From contig JAFSCF010000019.1 of assembly GCA_017436905.1 (NCBI GenBank), positions 1 through 64,000 of the forward strand: a stretch of DNA of 64,000 nt, in the 5' to 3' direction. This DNA comes from Clostridia bacterium (GTDB taxonomy: Bacteria > Bacillota > Clostridia > UMGS1810). Of the stretch, positions 9,722 through 13,736 are shown one piece after another; the stretch's first letter is position 1; every line of letters starts with the position of its first letter. The notes below the pieces were generated by a model. It was given only the letters and a program-made list of their open reading frames with translations, ran no database searches and was not told the origin of the DNA. The position numbers were made by a program, and so were the translations under genes.

Positions 9722-9737
9722 ACAGAAAATCGAATAA

Positions 9738-9826
9738 GAAACGGGAGCTTGTATTACAGGCTGAGAGGAAGGTATAACCTTCGACCGAGAACCTGATTTG
9801 GATAATGCCAACGTAGGGACGCCGAA
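9738..9826 (+). ncRNA. TPP riboswitch aptamer
   Basis: The THI-box is complete. GGGAG is followed by a P3 stem AGCTTGT/ACAGGCT and then CTGAGAGG. A small hairpin AAGG/CCTT comes next, then GACCGAG, AACCTGAT, TTGGATAATGCCAA and CGTAGGGA. CTGAGA (pyrimidine pocket) and GATAATGCC (pyrophosphate pocket) are the signature segments. P1 is weak. It lies just after a good promoter and before an intrinsic terminator, so TPP should stop transcription of the thi operon. Confidence 0.95.
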
Positions 9827-9858
9827 AGCGCAGACTTTGGGAAAAACAAAGGATACTT

Positions 9859-9890
9859 GGAAGTTACCAAATCGGTAGCTTCCTTTTTTA
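9859..9890 (+). terminator. Riboswitch-controlled intrinsic terminator
   Basis: GGAAGTTACC (9859-9868) pairs with GGTAGCTTCC (9874-9883) with one G-U, loop AAATC, followed by six T. It is the expression platform of the upstream TPP aptamer. Confidence 0.9.
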
Positions 9891-9963
9891 TTGCTTTTGG
9901 GAGGTGAAATAAAAAATTCCGGATATTCCGGACGGATATTAAGCGAGCGCTTCGTATCTTGTA

Positions 9964-10058
9964 TTTTGCGATGGGAACCCGTGTTTCGGGGTGAGAGGAG
10001 AAAATTAATTCTTGACCGAGCAAGGCTATATGCCTTGTATTATATCGTGAAAAGAGGA
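9964..10058 (+). ncRNA. Second structured leader element: TPP-like half aptamer before thiW
   Basis: Downstream of the terminator is a second element. P1 is TTTTGCGAT (9964-9972) with ATCGT and AAAA (10044-10053, one bulged G). A TGGGA segment follows, then a stem CCCG/CGGG (9978-9989 region), TGAGAGG (9992-9998), a small AGAA/TTCT hairpin, and GACCGAG (10014-10020). This parallels the TPP aptamer's P2-P3 arm with different but pairing stem bases. The P4-P5 pyrophosphate arm is replaced by a plain hairpin CAAGGC/GCCTTG (10021-10037). P1's 3' strand abuts the AGAGGA ribosome-binding site of thiW, seven bases before its ATG. Function is inferred. Confidence 0.6.
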
Positions 10059-10065
10059 ATCTCAA

Positions 10066-10785
10066 ATGACAAATCAAAAAAACTTACTTAAAATGCTTGT
10101 GCTTTCAATGCTGATTGCGCTCGGTGTGGTTATATCACCGATACTAAGAGTTGAAGGAATGTGTCCGATGGCACATTTTATAAACATCATCTGCTCGGTG
10201 TTCTTAGGGCCGTGGTATTCGCTTTTATGTGCCACACTCATCGGAATAATACGTATGGTTACAATGGGAATTCCACCTATTGCACTTACCGGTGCAGTCT
10301 TCGGTGCGTTTCTTTCGGGGGTGTTTTACCGTATGTCAAAGGGTAAAATCATATTCGCTGTAGTCGGTGAAATTATCGGAACAGGTATCATCGGAGCCTT
10401 GGCATCTTATCCTGTTATGACATTTTTGTGGGGCAAGGAAGGATTAAGTTGGATATTCTACATCCCATCCTTTGTGTGCGGAACTTTAATCGGCGGAAGC
10501 ATTGCCTATGTATTTCTGCGTAAACTTGCTGATAATGGTATGCTTTCGCAAATGCAGAATATGCTCGCATCAAGAAGTTATCAGGATAAAAGCACACTTC
10601 TTTCAAACACCGCAACCATTGCAGCCTTTGGGGCAATACTTTTTGTAATTATTGAGGTTACATCGGATATGTTTAAGTTGATATCCCCTGTGTTTGATGT
10701 CCTGTCAATAGCATCCCTCGTACTTTGCGCTGTAATTGCGGCTATATATTACATTTTCAAGAAGGTGAAAATAAGTGATAAATAA
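10066..10785 (+). CDS. thiW: ThiW, thiazole-specific ECF transporter S component
   Basis: ThiW is the membrane substrate-binding component of an energy-coupling-factor transporter thought to import hydroxyethylthiazole. The 239 residues are very hydrophobic, with about six to eight membrane segments and the early family-like stretch ISPILRVEGMCPMAHFIN. It is longer than the usual ThiW (roughly 160-175 residues); the extra part is a C-terminal region with two more membrane segments (about 178-232). AGAGGA precedes the ATG. It overlaps thiM by 11 bases. The shared ECF ATPase and T subunits are not in the window. Confidence 0.88.
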   Translation: MTNQKNLLKMLVLSMLIALGVVISPILRVEGMCPMAHFINIICSVFLGPWYSLLCATLIGIIRMVTMGIPPIALTGAVFGAFLSGVFYRMSKGKIIFAVVGEIIGTGIIGALASYPVMTFLWGKEGLSWIFYIPSFVCGTLIGGSIAYVFLRKLADNGMLSQMQNMLASRSYQDKSTLLSNTATIAAFGAILFVIIEVTSDMFKLISPVFDVLSIASLVLCAVIAAIYYIFKKVKISDK

Positions 10786-11569
10786 AAAAGATATGCAGAA
10801 AAAACCGCTTATTCACTGCATAACCAATCCCATATCCATAAACCAGTGTGCAAATGCAGTGCTTGCAGTTGGAGCAAAACCAATTATGGCAGAGCACCCG
10901 AAAGAGGCTTTAGAGACAACAAAAACAGCAGATGCTTTGATGCTCAATATTGGAAATATTACCGATGCCAGAATGGAAGCAATGCCTATTTCGCTAAAAG
11001 AGGCAACAAAGAAGAATATTCCTGTTGTACTCGACATTGTCGGGCTTGCTTGTTCAAGTCTTCGCAAAAGTTTTGTGAAGAAGTTGCTGAGGGAGGCTAT
11101 ACCGACAGTTATTAAGGGCAATTATTCCGAAATATTTGCTCTGTATAACGAGGAATATCGTTCATCAGGTGTAGATGCAGATGACTCTCTCAGTTCTGAA
11201 AATGCCGAAAAAGCAGCAGTATTCCTCGCAGACAGATACAATACCATTATACTGGCAACAGGTCAAAAAGACATTATTACAGACGGCAAAAGGCTTGTGT
11301 ATATCAACAATGGTACGGGGCTGTTATCTTCCGTTACAGGAACGGGATGTATGCTTGGTGCATTATGTGCTTCGTGTCTTGCAACGGATAATTCCCTTGA
11401 TTCGGTGGTTTATGCCTGTGCGGTATTGGGTGTTTCAGGTGAACTTTCGGAAACGATTGAAGGAAATGGTACATTTATGCAAAATCTTTTAGACAGGCTT
11501 TCTACAGTAACAAAAGTCGATATAGAAAAACATCTGAAAAAGGAGGAAAAGAAATTTGATGCAGTTTGA
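10775..11569 (+). CDS. thiM: Hydroxyethylthiazole kinase
   Basis: ThiM phosphorylates 4-methyl-5-hydroxyethylthiazole, the thiazole salvage step. The 264 residues have the ribokinase-like fold with the N-terminal PLIHCITNPI motif, the VLDIVG segment and the C-terminal TGTGCM motif (188-193) holding the catalytic-site Cys192. The start is GTG at 10775 with AAGGTGA before it, inside the end of thiW (11-base overlap), which implies translational coupling. It uses the substrate that ThiW brings in. Confidence 0.94.
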   Translation: MINKKDMQKKPLIHCITNPISINQCANAVLAVGAKPIMAEHPKEALETTKTADALMLNIGNITDARMEAMPISLKEATKKNIPVVLDIVGLACSSLRKSFVKKLLREAIPTVIKGNYSEIFALYNEEYRSSGVDADDSLSSENAEKAAVFLADRYNTIILATGQKDIITDGKRLVYINNGTGLLSSVTGTGCMLGALCASCLATDNSLDSVVYACAVLGVSGELSETIEGNGTFMQNLLDRLSTVTKVDIEKHLKKEEKKFDAV

Positions 11570-12191
11570 TTCAAGTATGTACTTTATAACGGATAGTTCA
11601 AACTACACGGAGGATGAATTCTTATACCGTGTTGAGCAGGCTCTTTCGGGCGGAGTTACACTACTGCAACTTCGTGAAAAGGATAAAACAACAAAAGAAT
11701 ATATTTCCCTTGCCGAAAAGGTACATACACTTACAAAGAAATATAATGTTCCGCTTATCATTGATGACCGTATTGATGTTGCACTTAGCGCAAGTGCAGA
11801 AGGTGTTCATCTCGGACAAAGCGATATGCCAATTTCTACGGCAAGAAAAATCCTCGGTGATGATTTTATTATAGGAGCAACAACCAAAACCGTTCCGCAG
11901 GCTCTTGAAGCTGCGGAACTTGGTGCAGACTATCTTGGAGTTGGGGCAATCTATCCAACCACAACAAAGGTTAAAACCGTTCTGACCTCCATCGAAACAC
12001 TTGATGCAATATGTAAAACTGTGCCAATCCCTGTAAATGCCATCGGTGGACTTAATAAGGATAATATTGATATTCTTAAAGGCATCCCCATTGCCGGTAT
12101 CTGCGTAGTATCTGCTATTATGAAGGCAGATAATCCAAAACAGGCAGCCATCGAACTTAAGGCAAGAGCAAAGGAACTTGGCTTATGTTAA
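11559..12191 (+). CDS. thiE: Thiamine-phosphate synthase
   Basis: ThiE joins HMP-PP and thiazole phosphate to thiamine monophosphate. The roughly 210-residue TIM-barrel protein shows LLQLREK, IIDDRIDVAL, GVHLGQSD, IGATTKT and the phosphate-binding GVGAIYPTTTK. ATG 11559 is given; TTG 11556 is equally possible because AGGAGG (11541-11546) is nine bases from it and twelve from the ATG. It overlaps the end of thiM by about 11 bases and the next gene by 7. Confidence 0.94.
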   Translation: MQFDSSMYFITDSSNYTEDEFLYRVEQALSGGVTLLQLREKDKTTKEYISLAEKVHTLTKKYNVPLIIDDRIDVALSASAEGVHLGQSDMPISTARKILGDDFIIGATTKTVPQALEAAELGADYLGVGAIYPTTTKVKTVLTSIETLDAICKTVPIPVNAIGGLNKDNIDILKGIPIAGICVVSAIMKADNPKQAAIELKARAKELGLC

Positions 12192-12841
12192 AGGGAGCAA
12201 TATTTGATTTAGACGGAACTATCCTTGATTCGATGTTTATTTGGGACACAATCGGAGAAGATTATCTTCGCTCTCTTGGAAAAGAGCCAAAGGAGAATTT
12301 GAAAGAAACCTTCAAAACTTTTAGTTTAGAACAGGCTGCACAGTATTATAGAGAAAATTATGAAGTTACGCTTTCTGTAAGTGAAATTATAGATAGCATA
12401 AACAAAATGGTACAAAACTATTATAAAGGTGTCGTACTACTGAAACCTGGCGTTGAAGTATTCTTAGAAAAGATGAAAGCAGAAAATATAAGAATGTGCA
12501 TTGCCACAGTTACAGATAAACATCTTGTGGAAGCGGCACTTATAAGACTTGGTGTGCGAGATTATTTTTCTGAAATATTTGCATGTAGCAAAGTAGGACA
12601 CAGTAAAGAAGAACCTCACATATACCGTGAGGCTCAAAAACATCTTGGAACAGATAAAAGCGAAACAGCGGTATTTGAGGATGCGCTTTATGCACTAAAA
12701 ACCGCAAAGGCAGATGGTTTTGTGACTATTGGAGTTTTTGATATTCACGAAGAAAATCAAGAGGAACTTAAAAAGATAGCAGACTGTTATATCGATGACT
12801 ATTCAAAATTTGATAAGTTCTGGAACAGTATAAACAAATAA
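12185..12841 (+). CDS. HAD-family phosphatase in the thiamine operon
   Basis: This is a haloacid-dehalogenase superfamily hydrolase of 218 residues. It has the nucleophile motif FDLDGT (Asp8, Asp10), motif II in CIATVTD, the motif III lysine near HSKEEPHIY and motif IV FEDALYAL. A helical cap lies between motif I and II (about 18-85), the subfamily I arrangement. The 7-base overlap with thiE suggests a thiamine role, such as phosphate removal from thiamine monophosphate or HMP phosphate, but the substrate cannot be read from the sequence. Confidence 0.85.
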   Translation: MLKGAIFDLDGTILDSMFIWDTIGEDYLRSLGKEPKENLKETFKTFSLEQAAQYYRENYEVTLSVSEIIDSINKMVQNYYKGVVLLKPGVEVFLEKMKAENIRMCIATVTDKHLVEAALIRLGVRDYFSEIFACSKVGHSKEEPHIYREAQKHLGTDKSETAVFEDALYALKTAKADGFVTIGVFDIHEENQEELKKIADCYIDDYSKFDKFWNSINK

Positions 12842-12846
12842 AAGAA

Positions 12847-12869
12847 AGCGGTAGCCCGCGGGCACCGCT
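12847..12869 (+). repeat. GC-rich intercistronic hairpin before thiD
   Basis: AGCGGT (12847-12852) pairs with ACCGCT (12864-12869), and inside it GCCC (12854-12857) pairs with GGGC (12860-12863), leaving one bulged A. No T tract follows, so it is not a plain intrinsic terminator. It lies in the only gap of the thi operon, between the HAD gene and thiD. Confidence 0.7.
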
Positions 12870-12923
12870 CTCTGTCGATGAATAAAAATAATGCAAATAA
12901 TTCAGTAAAGGAGCAAAAAAACT

Positions 12924-13736
12924 ATGAGAACAGCATTATCAATCGCAGGCAGTGATTCCTGCGGAGGTGCCGGTATTCAAGCAGATATTAAAACAATGAC
13001 AATGAATGGTGTTTATGCTATGAGTGCAATTTCTGCACTGACAGCACAGAACACAACCGGCGTTATAGCAATTTTAGAAGCAACTCCTGAATTTTTGAAA
13101 CAGCAAATTGACGCAGTATTTGAGGACATTTTCCCCGATAGTGTCAAAATCGGTATGGTATCATCAAGTGAACTTGTTTGCGTAATCGCAGACAGACTAA
13201 AATACCATAAGGCAAAAAACATTGTTGTAGATCCTGTTATGGTGGCAACAAGCGGCTCATCACTTATGAAAACAGATGCAGTTAAAACATTTATAGATAA
13301 ACTTTTACCGATTGCAACACTCGTTACGCCGAACATTCCCGAAGCTCAGGTATTATCCGGGCTTTCTATTAAAAGTAAAGAAGATATGCTAAAGGCTTCA
13401 AAAATAATCGGTGATGCACACGGCTGTACAGTACTTTTAAAGGGCGGTCATAACATCAATGATGCAAATGACCTTTTATATGAAAACGGAGAATATCATT
13501 GGTTTGAAGGTAAGCGAATAGACAACCCCAACACGCACGGAACGGGATGCACATTATCAAGTGCTATAGCATCAAACCTTGCAAAAGGCTTTACTCTTGC
13601 TGAGTCAGTACAAAGAGCAAAGGAATATATTTCAGGTGCTCTTTCAAACGGGCTTAATTTAGGGCAAGGCTCAGGGCCGATGATGCATAACTTTAACCTT
13701 AAATCGTACTTTGCCGAAGAAAAAATATCTGATTGA
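12924..13736 (+). CDS. thiD: Hydroxymethylpyrimidine/phosphomethylpyrimidine kinase
   Basis: ThiD phosphorylates HMP and then HMP-P to HMP-PP, the pyrimidine substrate of ThiE. The 270-residue ribokinase-fold protein has GSDSCGGAGIQAD (9-21), VDPVMVATSG, LVTPNIPEAQVL and the late GTGCTLSSAIA motif. AAGGAGC precedes the ATG. It closes the intact part of the thi operon. A broken thiC start follows 14 bases later. Confidence 0.95.
   Translation: MRTALSIAGSDSCGGAGIQADIKTMTMNGVYAMSAISALTAQNTTGVIAILEATPEFLKQQIDAVFEDIFPDSVKIGMVSSSELVCVIADRLKYHKAKNIVVDPVMVATSGSSLMKTDAVKTFIDKLLPIATLVTPNIPEAQVLSGLSIKSKEDMLKASKIIGDAHGCTVLLKGGHNINDANDLLYENGEYHWFEGKRIDNPNTHGTGCTLSSAIASNLAKGFTLAESVQRAKEYISGALSNGLNLGQGSGPMMHNFNLKSYFAEEKISD

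Follow-up and report, generated by a model that had tools for sequence, protein, structure and literature searches.

A conserved leader RNA ahead of thiW shares half of its aptamer-like core with TPP riboswitches

Two structured leaders ahead of the thiW operon

The window analyzed here is the whole 64,000-nt stretch of DNA from a Clostridia bacterium (GCA_017436905.1, contig JAFSCF010000019.1). Its plus strand carries an operon in the order thiW-thiM-thiE-HAD hydrolase-thiD, and two structured leaders lie in tandem ahead of it. The first is a TPP riboswitch with its intrinsic terminator. The second begins about 45 nt past that terminator and ends at the thiW ribosome-binding site. An earlier note on this DNA had described the tandem arrangement and the sequence of 9964-10058, and both were confirmed from the sequence. 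Its boundaries for the element stood only in part: 9964-10058 is as described, but the conserved unit, called the thiW motif here, begins about 30 nt further upstream and includes a hairpin at 9935-9958 that had been missed. In the window this unit is 9933-10019, with about 87 conserved positions. The features of the region are as follows.

9731..9836, plus strand: TPP riboswitch aptamer (RF00059; cmscan 57.0 bits, gathering score 54.3)
9859..9889, plus strand: intrinsic terminator of the TPP riboswitch, a 10-pair stem (9859-9883) and then a T run
9918..9932, plus strand: optional leading hairpin TCCGGATATTCCGGA, from leader sequences and a predicted fold
9935..9958, plus strand: hairpin A, GATA..AAGC-GAGC-GCTT..TATC, a covarying stem with a GGAGCG/CGAGCG loop
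9959..9967, plus strand: linker TTGTATTTT, variable in length; its 3' end could be the 5' strand of P1
9968..9977, plus strand: core GCGATGGGAA with GGGA, the counterpart of TPP G19; GGGA is invariant in 55/55 rows
9978..9990, plus strand: P3 hairpin CCCG-TGTTT-CGGG, 4 pairs, 100% paired
9991..9997, plus strand: junction GTGAGAG, with counterparts of TPP U39-A43, which hold the pyrimidine in TPP aptamers; GAGAG is invariant in 55/55 rows
9998..10013, plus strand: P3a hairpin GAGAA-AATTAA-TTCTT, 5 pairs, 99.6% paired, double changes in all
10014..10018, plus strand: GACCG, 3' strand of a putative P2; ACCG is invariant in 55/55 rows
10020..10038, plus strand: P4 hairpin GCAAGGC-TATAT-GCCTTGT, at the place of the pyrophosphate arm; permutation z -13.6
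10044..10052, plus strand: putative 3' strand of P1, ATCGTGAAA, with partner 9964-9972, as predicted in the minimum-energy structure
10054..10058, plus strand: ribosome-binding site GAGGA of thiW, read from the sequence, 8 nt ahead of the ATG
10066..10785, plus strand: thiW, S component of a hydroxyethylthiazole ECF transporter (TIGR02359, 133 bits, cut-off 84)
10775..13736, plus strand: thiM, thiE, HAD hydrolase, and thiD of the same operon (NCBIfam matches)

The counterpart of the optional leading hairpin has a different sequence in many homologues and is missing in others. Many relatives also have a ribosome-site-like sequence, GGAGGTGA (9900-9907 in the window), between the TPP terminator and the motif, upstream of the hairpin. 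It has no common start codon and is perhaps the relic of a leader from other TPP-controlled thi genes. The HAD-family hydrolase encoded between thiE and thiD (12185-12841) might dephosphorylate a thiamin intermediate. Two tRNA genes lie on the minus strand at the window edge (83-247).

Covariation and likeness to the TPP aptamer

A scan of genome contigs for ThiW gave 80 loci, and their leaders share one recurring pattern. We aligned leaders with MAFFT from sequence only, which gave 55 rows. The consensus of this alignment is hairpin A, a variable linker, GCGAUGGGAA, P3 (NNNG-UGUUU-CNNN), GUGAGAG, P3a with a six-base loop, GACCG, and a variable P4. Standard pairs occupied 98.1% of cells in the 55-row alignment, and 15 of the 20 pairs showed changes on both sides. 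We observed 177 cells with double changes, against a mean of 49 after shuffling, and pairing fell to 39-52% when the partners were slid by 1-3 columns. Because shuffles ignore relatedness, we also mapped the pair states by parsimony on the ThiW protein tree. This gave about 102 compensatory double events and 10 breaks, compared with 2-12 and 37-56 in the slid controls.

Double changes were found in 7 of the 8 pairs of the hairpin A stem, and its loop was invariant at alignment columns 13-16. This hairpin is present in every complete member and therefore belongs to the element. The P3 stem occurs as CCCG, GCCG, CCTG, CTCG, or TCCG. P2 (GG/CC) never varies, and covariation is silent on it either way. 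The P4 hairpin varies among members and is short or missing in some; the permutation value listed for P4 of the window comes from setting its 5' strand against the downstream region with strands exchanged among 48 non-redundant leaders. Thermodynamic stability was only moderate (z -1.9) and was set aside as evidence. The thiW motif is a leader RNA whose conserved helices covary and which goes with a single pathway. The earlier note had argued for a maintained RNA and not a decayed duplicate, and the strong covariation of the helices in homologous leaders, together with the compensatory events on the ThiW tree, bears this out.

We used a covariance model of the motif, built from homologues (R1), in scans for likeness and distribution. 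It scores the window site at 97 bits (E 6e-23), which excludes chance as the origin of the element there. Its other match is to the TPP aptamer's pyrimidine arm, at 32.8 bits (E 1e-6), and nothing else in the 64 kb rises above 9 bits, the score of the next non-TPP match. Across the 80 thiW loci, strong matches (at least 57 bits) are the motif, and weaker ones (20-43 bits) lie upstream, in the stretch of the TPP aptamer. The weaker class-wide matches that were inspected (L151-L163) are TPP aptamers. Rfam 15 at E<=10 found nothing within 9900-10070 of the window and gave no match at the motif in 40 homologous loci. RF00059, which scores 57 at 9731-9836, has no match over its gathering score at 9900-10070. 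Thus, in keeping with the earlier note, there is no full TPP aptamer at the second leader, nor any catalogued family. Neither outcome that the earlier note had named as speaking against its view, a lack of covariation or a TPP aptamer recovered at this site, was observed.

The motif and the TPP aptamer have GGGA, the P3 arm, the UGAGA junction, the P3a hairpin, and ACC in common, in the same order. In the TPP riboswitch, the pyrimidine is held by G42 and A43 through stacking and by G40 and G19 through hydrogen bonds, while the pyrophosphate is held by C77 and G78 (PMC7824784). By our own mapping of that numbering, G19, G40, G42, and A43 fall in invariant columns of the motif (55/55 rows). Another 37 loci, which include divergent ones as well as copies of earlier loci, also have GGGA, GAGAG, and ACCG. 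Unlike the TPP aptamer, the motif has no pyrophosphate-sensor arm (P4-J4/5-P5, with the counterparts of C77 and G78; no GAACCUGAU..GCGUAGGGA), and the variable P4 hairpin sits where the TPP aptamer has that arm. The GGAGCG hairpin upstream is the motif's own and is lacking in TPP aptamers. The likeness to the pyrimidine arm that the earlier note had proposed is thus seen both in the match of the motif model to the TPP aptamer and in the invariant contact bases, and its view that a plain hairpin stands in place of the pyrophosphate arm also held. The motif may either descend from or converge on the TPP pyrimidine-sensor arm.

Distribution and gene context

The motif occurs in many gut bacteria, directly ahead of thiW. 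It was found in 78/80 leaders of the closest thiW homologues, a figure that describes the loci nearest the window's ThiW and not a class-wide rate; class-wide, 16/74 sampled genomes with thiW over the cut-off carry it. Among 391 genomes sampled across the class, 17 have the motif at a score of at least 50 bits. One member (G557) lies outside the class, and in the family of G049 the motif is present in 21/170 genomes. A cultured bearer is [Clostridium] clostridioforme AGR2157 (L080).

Where it was readable, the first downstream gene is thiW or encodes a ThiW-like S component, with thiM in L146. In a few loci the first long reading frame did not correspond to the downstream gene, and these were left out of the gene assignment. 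A TPP aptamer over threshold was detected in 35 of 40 scanned loci, sometimes two. In L059, L065, L067, L068, and L084 (about 1000-1300), two TPP riboswitches in series and the motif put three sensors in one leader. In L197, L199, and L206, the gene behind the motif encodes a ThiW-like S component that is divergent (..AFVLNTFVYFPAMAPFQHFV..) and may transport another substrate.

Full-length ThiG was found in only 3 of 18 bearers (G092, G169, and G362), and ThiC over the cut-off was found in 11. Therefore, most bearers seem to produce or possess the pyrimidine half and must salvage the thiazole via ThiW and ThiM. Neither ThiC nor ThiG was found in the window's genome (88.8% complete), and so for that genome the argument from physiology is only indirect.

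Control of thiW and the candidate ligand

No intrinsic terminator was found on the plus strand of the window after 9950, which agrees with what the earlier note had reported for the second leader. Since there is no terminator and the element reaches as far as the ribosome-binding site, control is more likely to be exerted on translation. For Lachnospiraceae-type members, an unbiased strand-exchange test supports P1 (e.g., AACAGCG/CGCUGUU; z -5.7), and there is support too for P4 (z -6.4) and for a competing helix that loops out the 3' strand of P1 (z -5.2). Together, these helices would have the anatomy of a switch in these members. Formation of P1 and P4 frees a strand that shows weak pairing with the ribosome-binding site (z -2.0). 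This weak anti-Shine-Dalgarno signal would fit better with a switch that is OFF with ligand, and it would favor thiamin, TMP, or TPP over HMP-PP as the ligand.

The P1 that the earlier note had drawn between 9964-9972 and 10044-10052 is the predicted minimum-energy pairing in the window but lacks comparative support in the window's own group (z -1.1). We rejected it as a family-wide helix, though P1 is supported in the Lachnospiraceae-type members. In the window's group, the strand before the ribosome site gave z -3.6 with the linker and z -3.3 with the 3' strand of P4, moderate values that are uncorrected for relatedness; competing helices are weakly supported there. The predicted accessibility of the ribosome site, with P1 forced or blocked, changed in no consistent direction (11 lower, 4 higher; 18 lower, 17 higher). 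In L107 and L140, a T run follows the P4 hairpin and could mark a terminator, and the control mode may thus differ between members.

We lean toward reading the motif as a cis-acting, translational riboswitch candidate that probably binds a ligand and reuses half of the TPP aptamer, with HMP-PP as its most likely ligand. The part that grips the pyrimidine is kept and the part that grips the phosphate is absent, and the motif is thus probably a new RNA sensor for a building block of vitamin B1. We have moderate confidence that the ligand class is an HMP-containing molecule, and the choice of HMP-PP in particular is tentative. The earlier note had already proposed an HMP-containing precursor as ligand and an effect on translation, both of which are plausible. 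That the TPP pyrimidine arm and the GGAGCG hairpin make up a new riboswitch class for HMP-PP or another HMP precursor is a possibility that we would place somewhat short of probable. In such a class, the pyrimidine-sensor arm, paired with the separate GGAGCG hairpin and not with a pyrophosphate arm, would bind an aminopyrimidine (HMP)-bearing molecule, most likely HMP-PP, the co-substrate expected to accumulate when thiazole runs short. In the bound state, P1 and the P4 region beside the ribosome-binding site would be rearranged, and the rearrangement would alter how thiW-thiM-thiE is translated. Combined with the TPP switch, this would turn on thiazole salvage when TPP is scarce and the pyrimidine half is available. 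That the switch is of the ON kind is a guess from metabolism, not from structure. In bearers that must salvage thiazole, HMP-PP should rise when thiazole is missing, and the published HMP-PP riboswitch has been shown to follow this logic (PMC6478431). The gene content of the bearers, mostly without ThiG and in 11 of 18 with ThiC, fits the sensing of an HMP precursor to adjust thiazole salvage.

If this reading is true, the motif would supply the second input to a two-input control of thiazole salvage, in gut Clostridia that are mostly without thiazole synthesis, and it would be a second, structurally unrelated solution to HMP-PP sensing. Were HMP-PP or a relative bound, one aptamer domain would have been split off and given a new partner and a new ligand, a clear example of a riboswitch evolving through the loss of a domain and a change of ligand. 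The motif would also offer a test of whether the pyrimidine pocket works without the pyrophosphate arm.

The same RNA could instead bind the finished product in one of its forms (thiamin, TMP, or TPP) and turn thiW off, as a second feedback switch in which the GGAGCG hairpin perhaps does the work of the lost pyrophosphate arm. A pyrimidine pocket would suit all of these molecules, which have this half in common, and 5 of the 40 scanned loci already have two TPP aptamers in series. The weak anti-Shine-Dalgarno strand freed upon formation of P1 and P4 in the Lachnospiraceae-type members also points this way. However, a TPP switch is already present upstream, twice in some loci, and a further TPP sensor would add little. 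In addition, the pyrophosphate arm is wholly missing, and most bearers are without thiazole synthesis, where a precursor signal would be more useful. We consider a thiamin-compound switch unlikely, though it deserves to be taken seriously.

It is distinctly unlikely that the leader is read by a protein or serves in RNA stability or processing, and that its TPP likeness persists because the junction needs it to fold. The TPP riboswitches of Escherichia coli and Arabidopsis contain a k-junction (PMC10573300), so the conserved junction bases could be structural, and a protein could recognize the GGAGCG hairpin, whose loop is simple and conserved. This would leave unexplained why GGGA, UGAGA, and ACC are invariant in sequence, the pyrimidine-contacting bases included, and why the downstream genes belong to exactly that pathway.

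Membership in the published HMP-PP (thiS motif) riboswitch class is very improbable. The accessible part of the class description (PMC6478431) places its members in the same gene neighborhood (thiW and thiE) and in the same order after a TPP riboswitch. The thiW motif likewise lies downstream of a TPP riboswitch (35/40 loci) and ahead of thiazole salvage genes (thiW/thiM), and the ligand is possibly shared. However, according to that part of the description, thiS aptamers are embedded in an intrinsic terminator that is about 66 nt long, with a pseudoknot and a run of six or more U (Atilho et al. 2019, PMC6478431), whereas the thiW motif has about 87 conserved positions, a TPP-like core, and, in the window, no terminator. 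The class is also marked by a conserved G run and by loop pyrimidines in the pseudoknot. Even a T5 past the core was found in just 15/89 relatives, and few of these are linked to a hairpin. We therefore rejected membership on the terminator, the same feature from which the earlier note had judged the fit to be poor; the motif is set apart from the class by this part of its published description and not by a consensus sequence.

The leader resembles the tandem TPP/HMP-PP gate "NOT A AND B" (PMC9481103) in having a TPP riboswitch first, then a second sensor, and then a thiazole gene. It differs from this gate in that the motif is another type of RNA and control after it looks translational. As a riboswitch candidate, the motif has half of its aptamer in common with TPP riboswitches but departs from each of the two known classes in a feature that defines it. 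Few RNA sensors have been studied as much as the TPP riboswitch, yet a relative that is widespread and carries half of its binding site seems to have escaped cataloguing. The open-access papers searched do not mention such a motif; subscription papers, preprints, and supplements lay outside that search, and an earlier description is possible. In the accessible main text of two discovery surveys (PMC8632094 and PMC11109978), the motif is not described.

A translated leader peptide acting as an attenuator is highly improbable: the ribosome-site-like sequence recurs upstream of the hairpin, but relatives have no consistent start codon or frame, which led us to reject it, the linker lengths differ by non-multiples of three, and it is pairing that is conserved. 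A second TPP riboswitch that arose by tandem duplication and then decayed, which the position directly behind a TPP riboswitch and the tandem TPP pairs of relatives might suggest, is scarcely credible, since the motif has a hairpin that TPP aptamers lack and is ruled out as such a copy by its covariation, with the compensatory changes counted above, and by its conservation in nearly all of the closest thiW leaders and in distant genomes.
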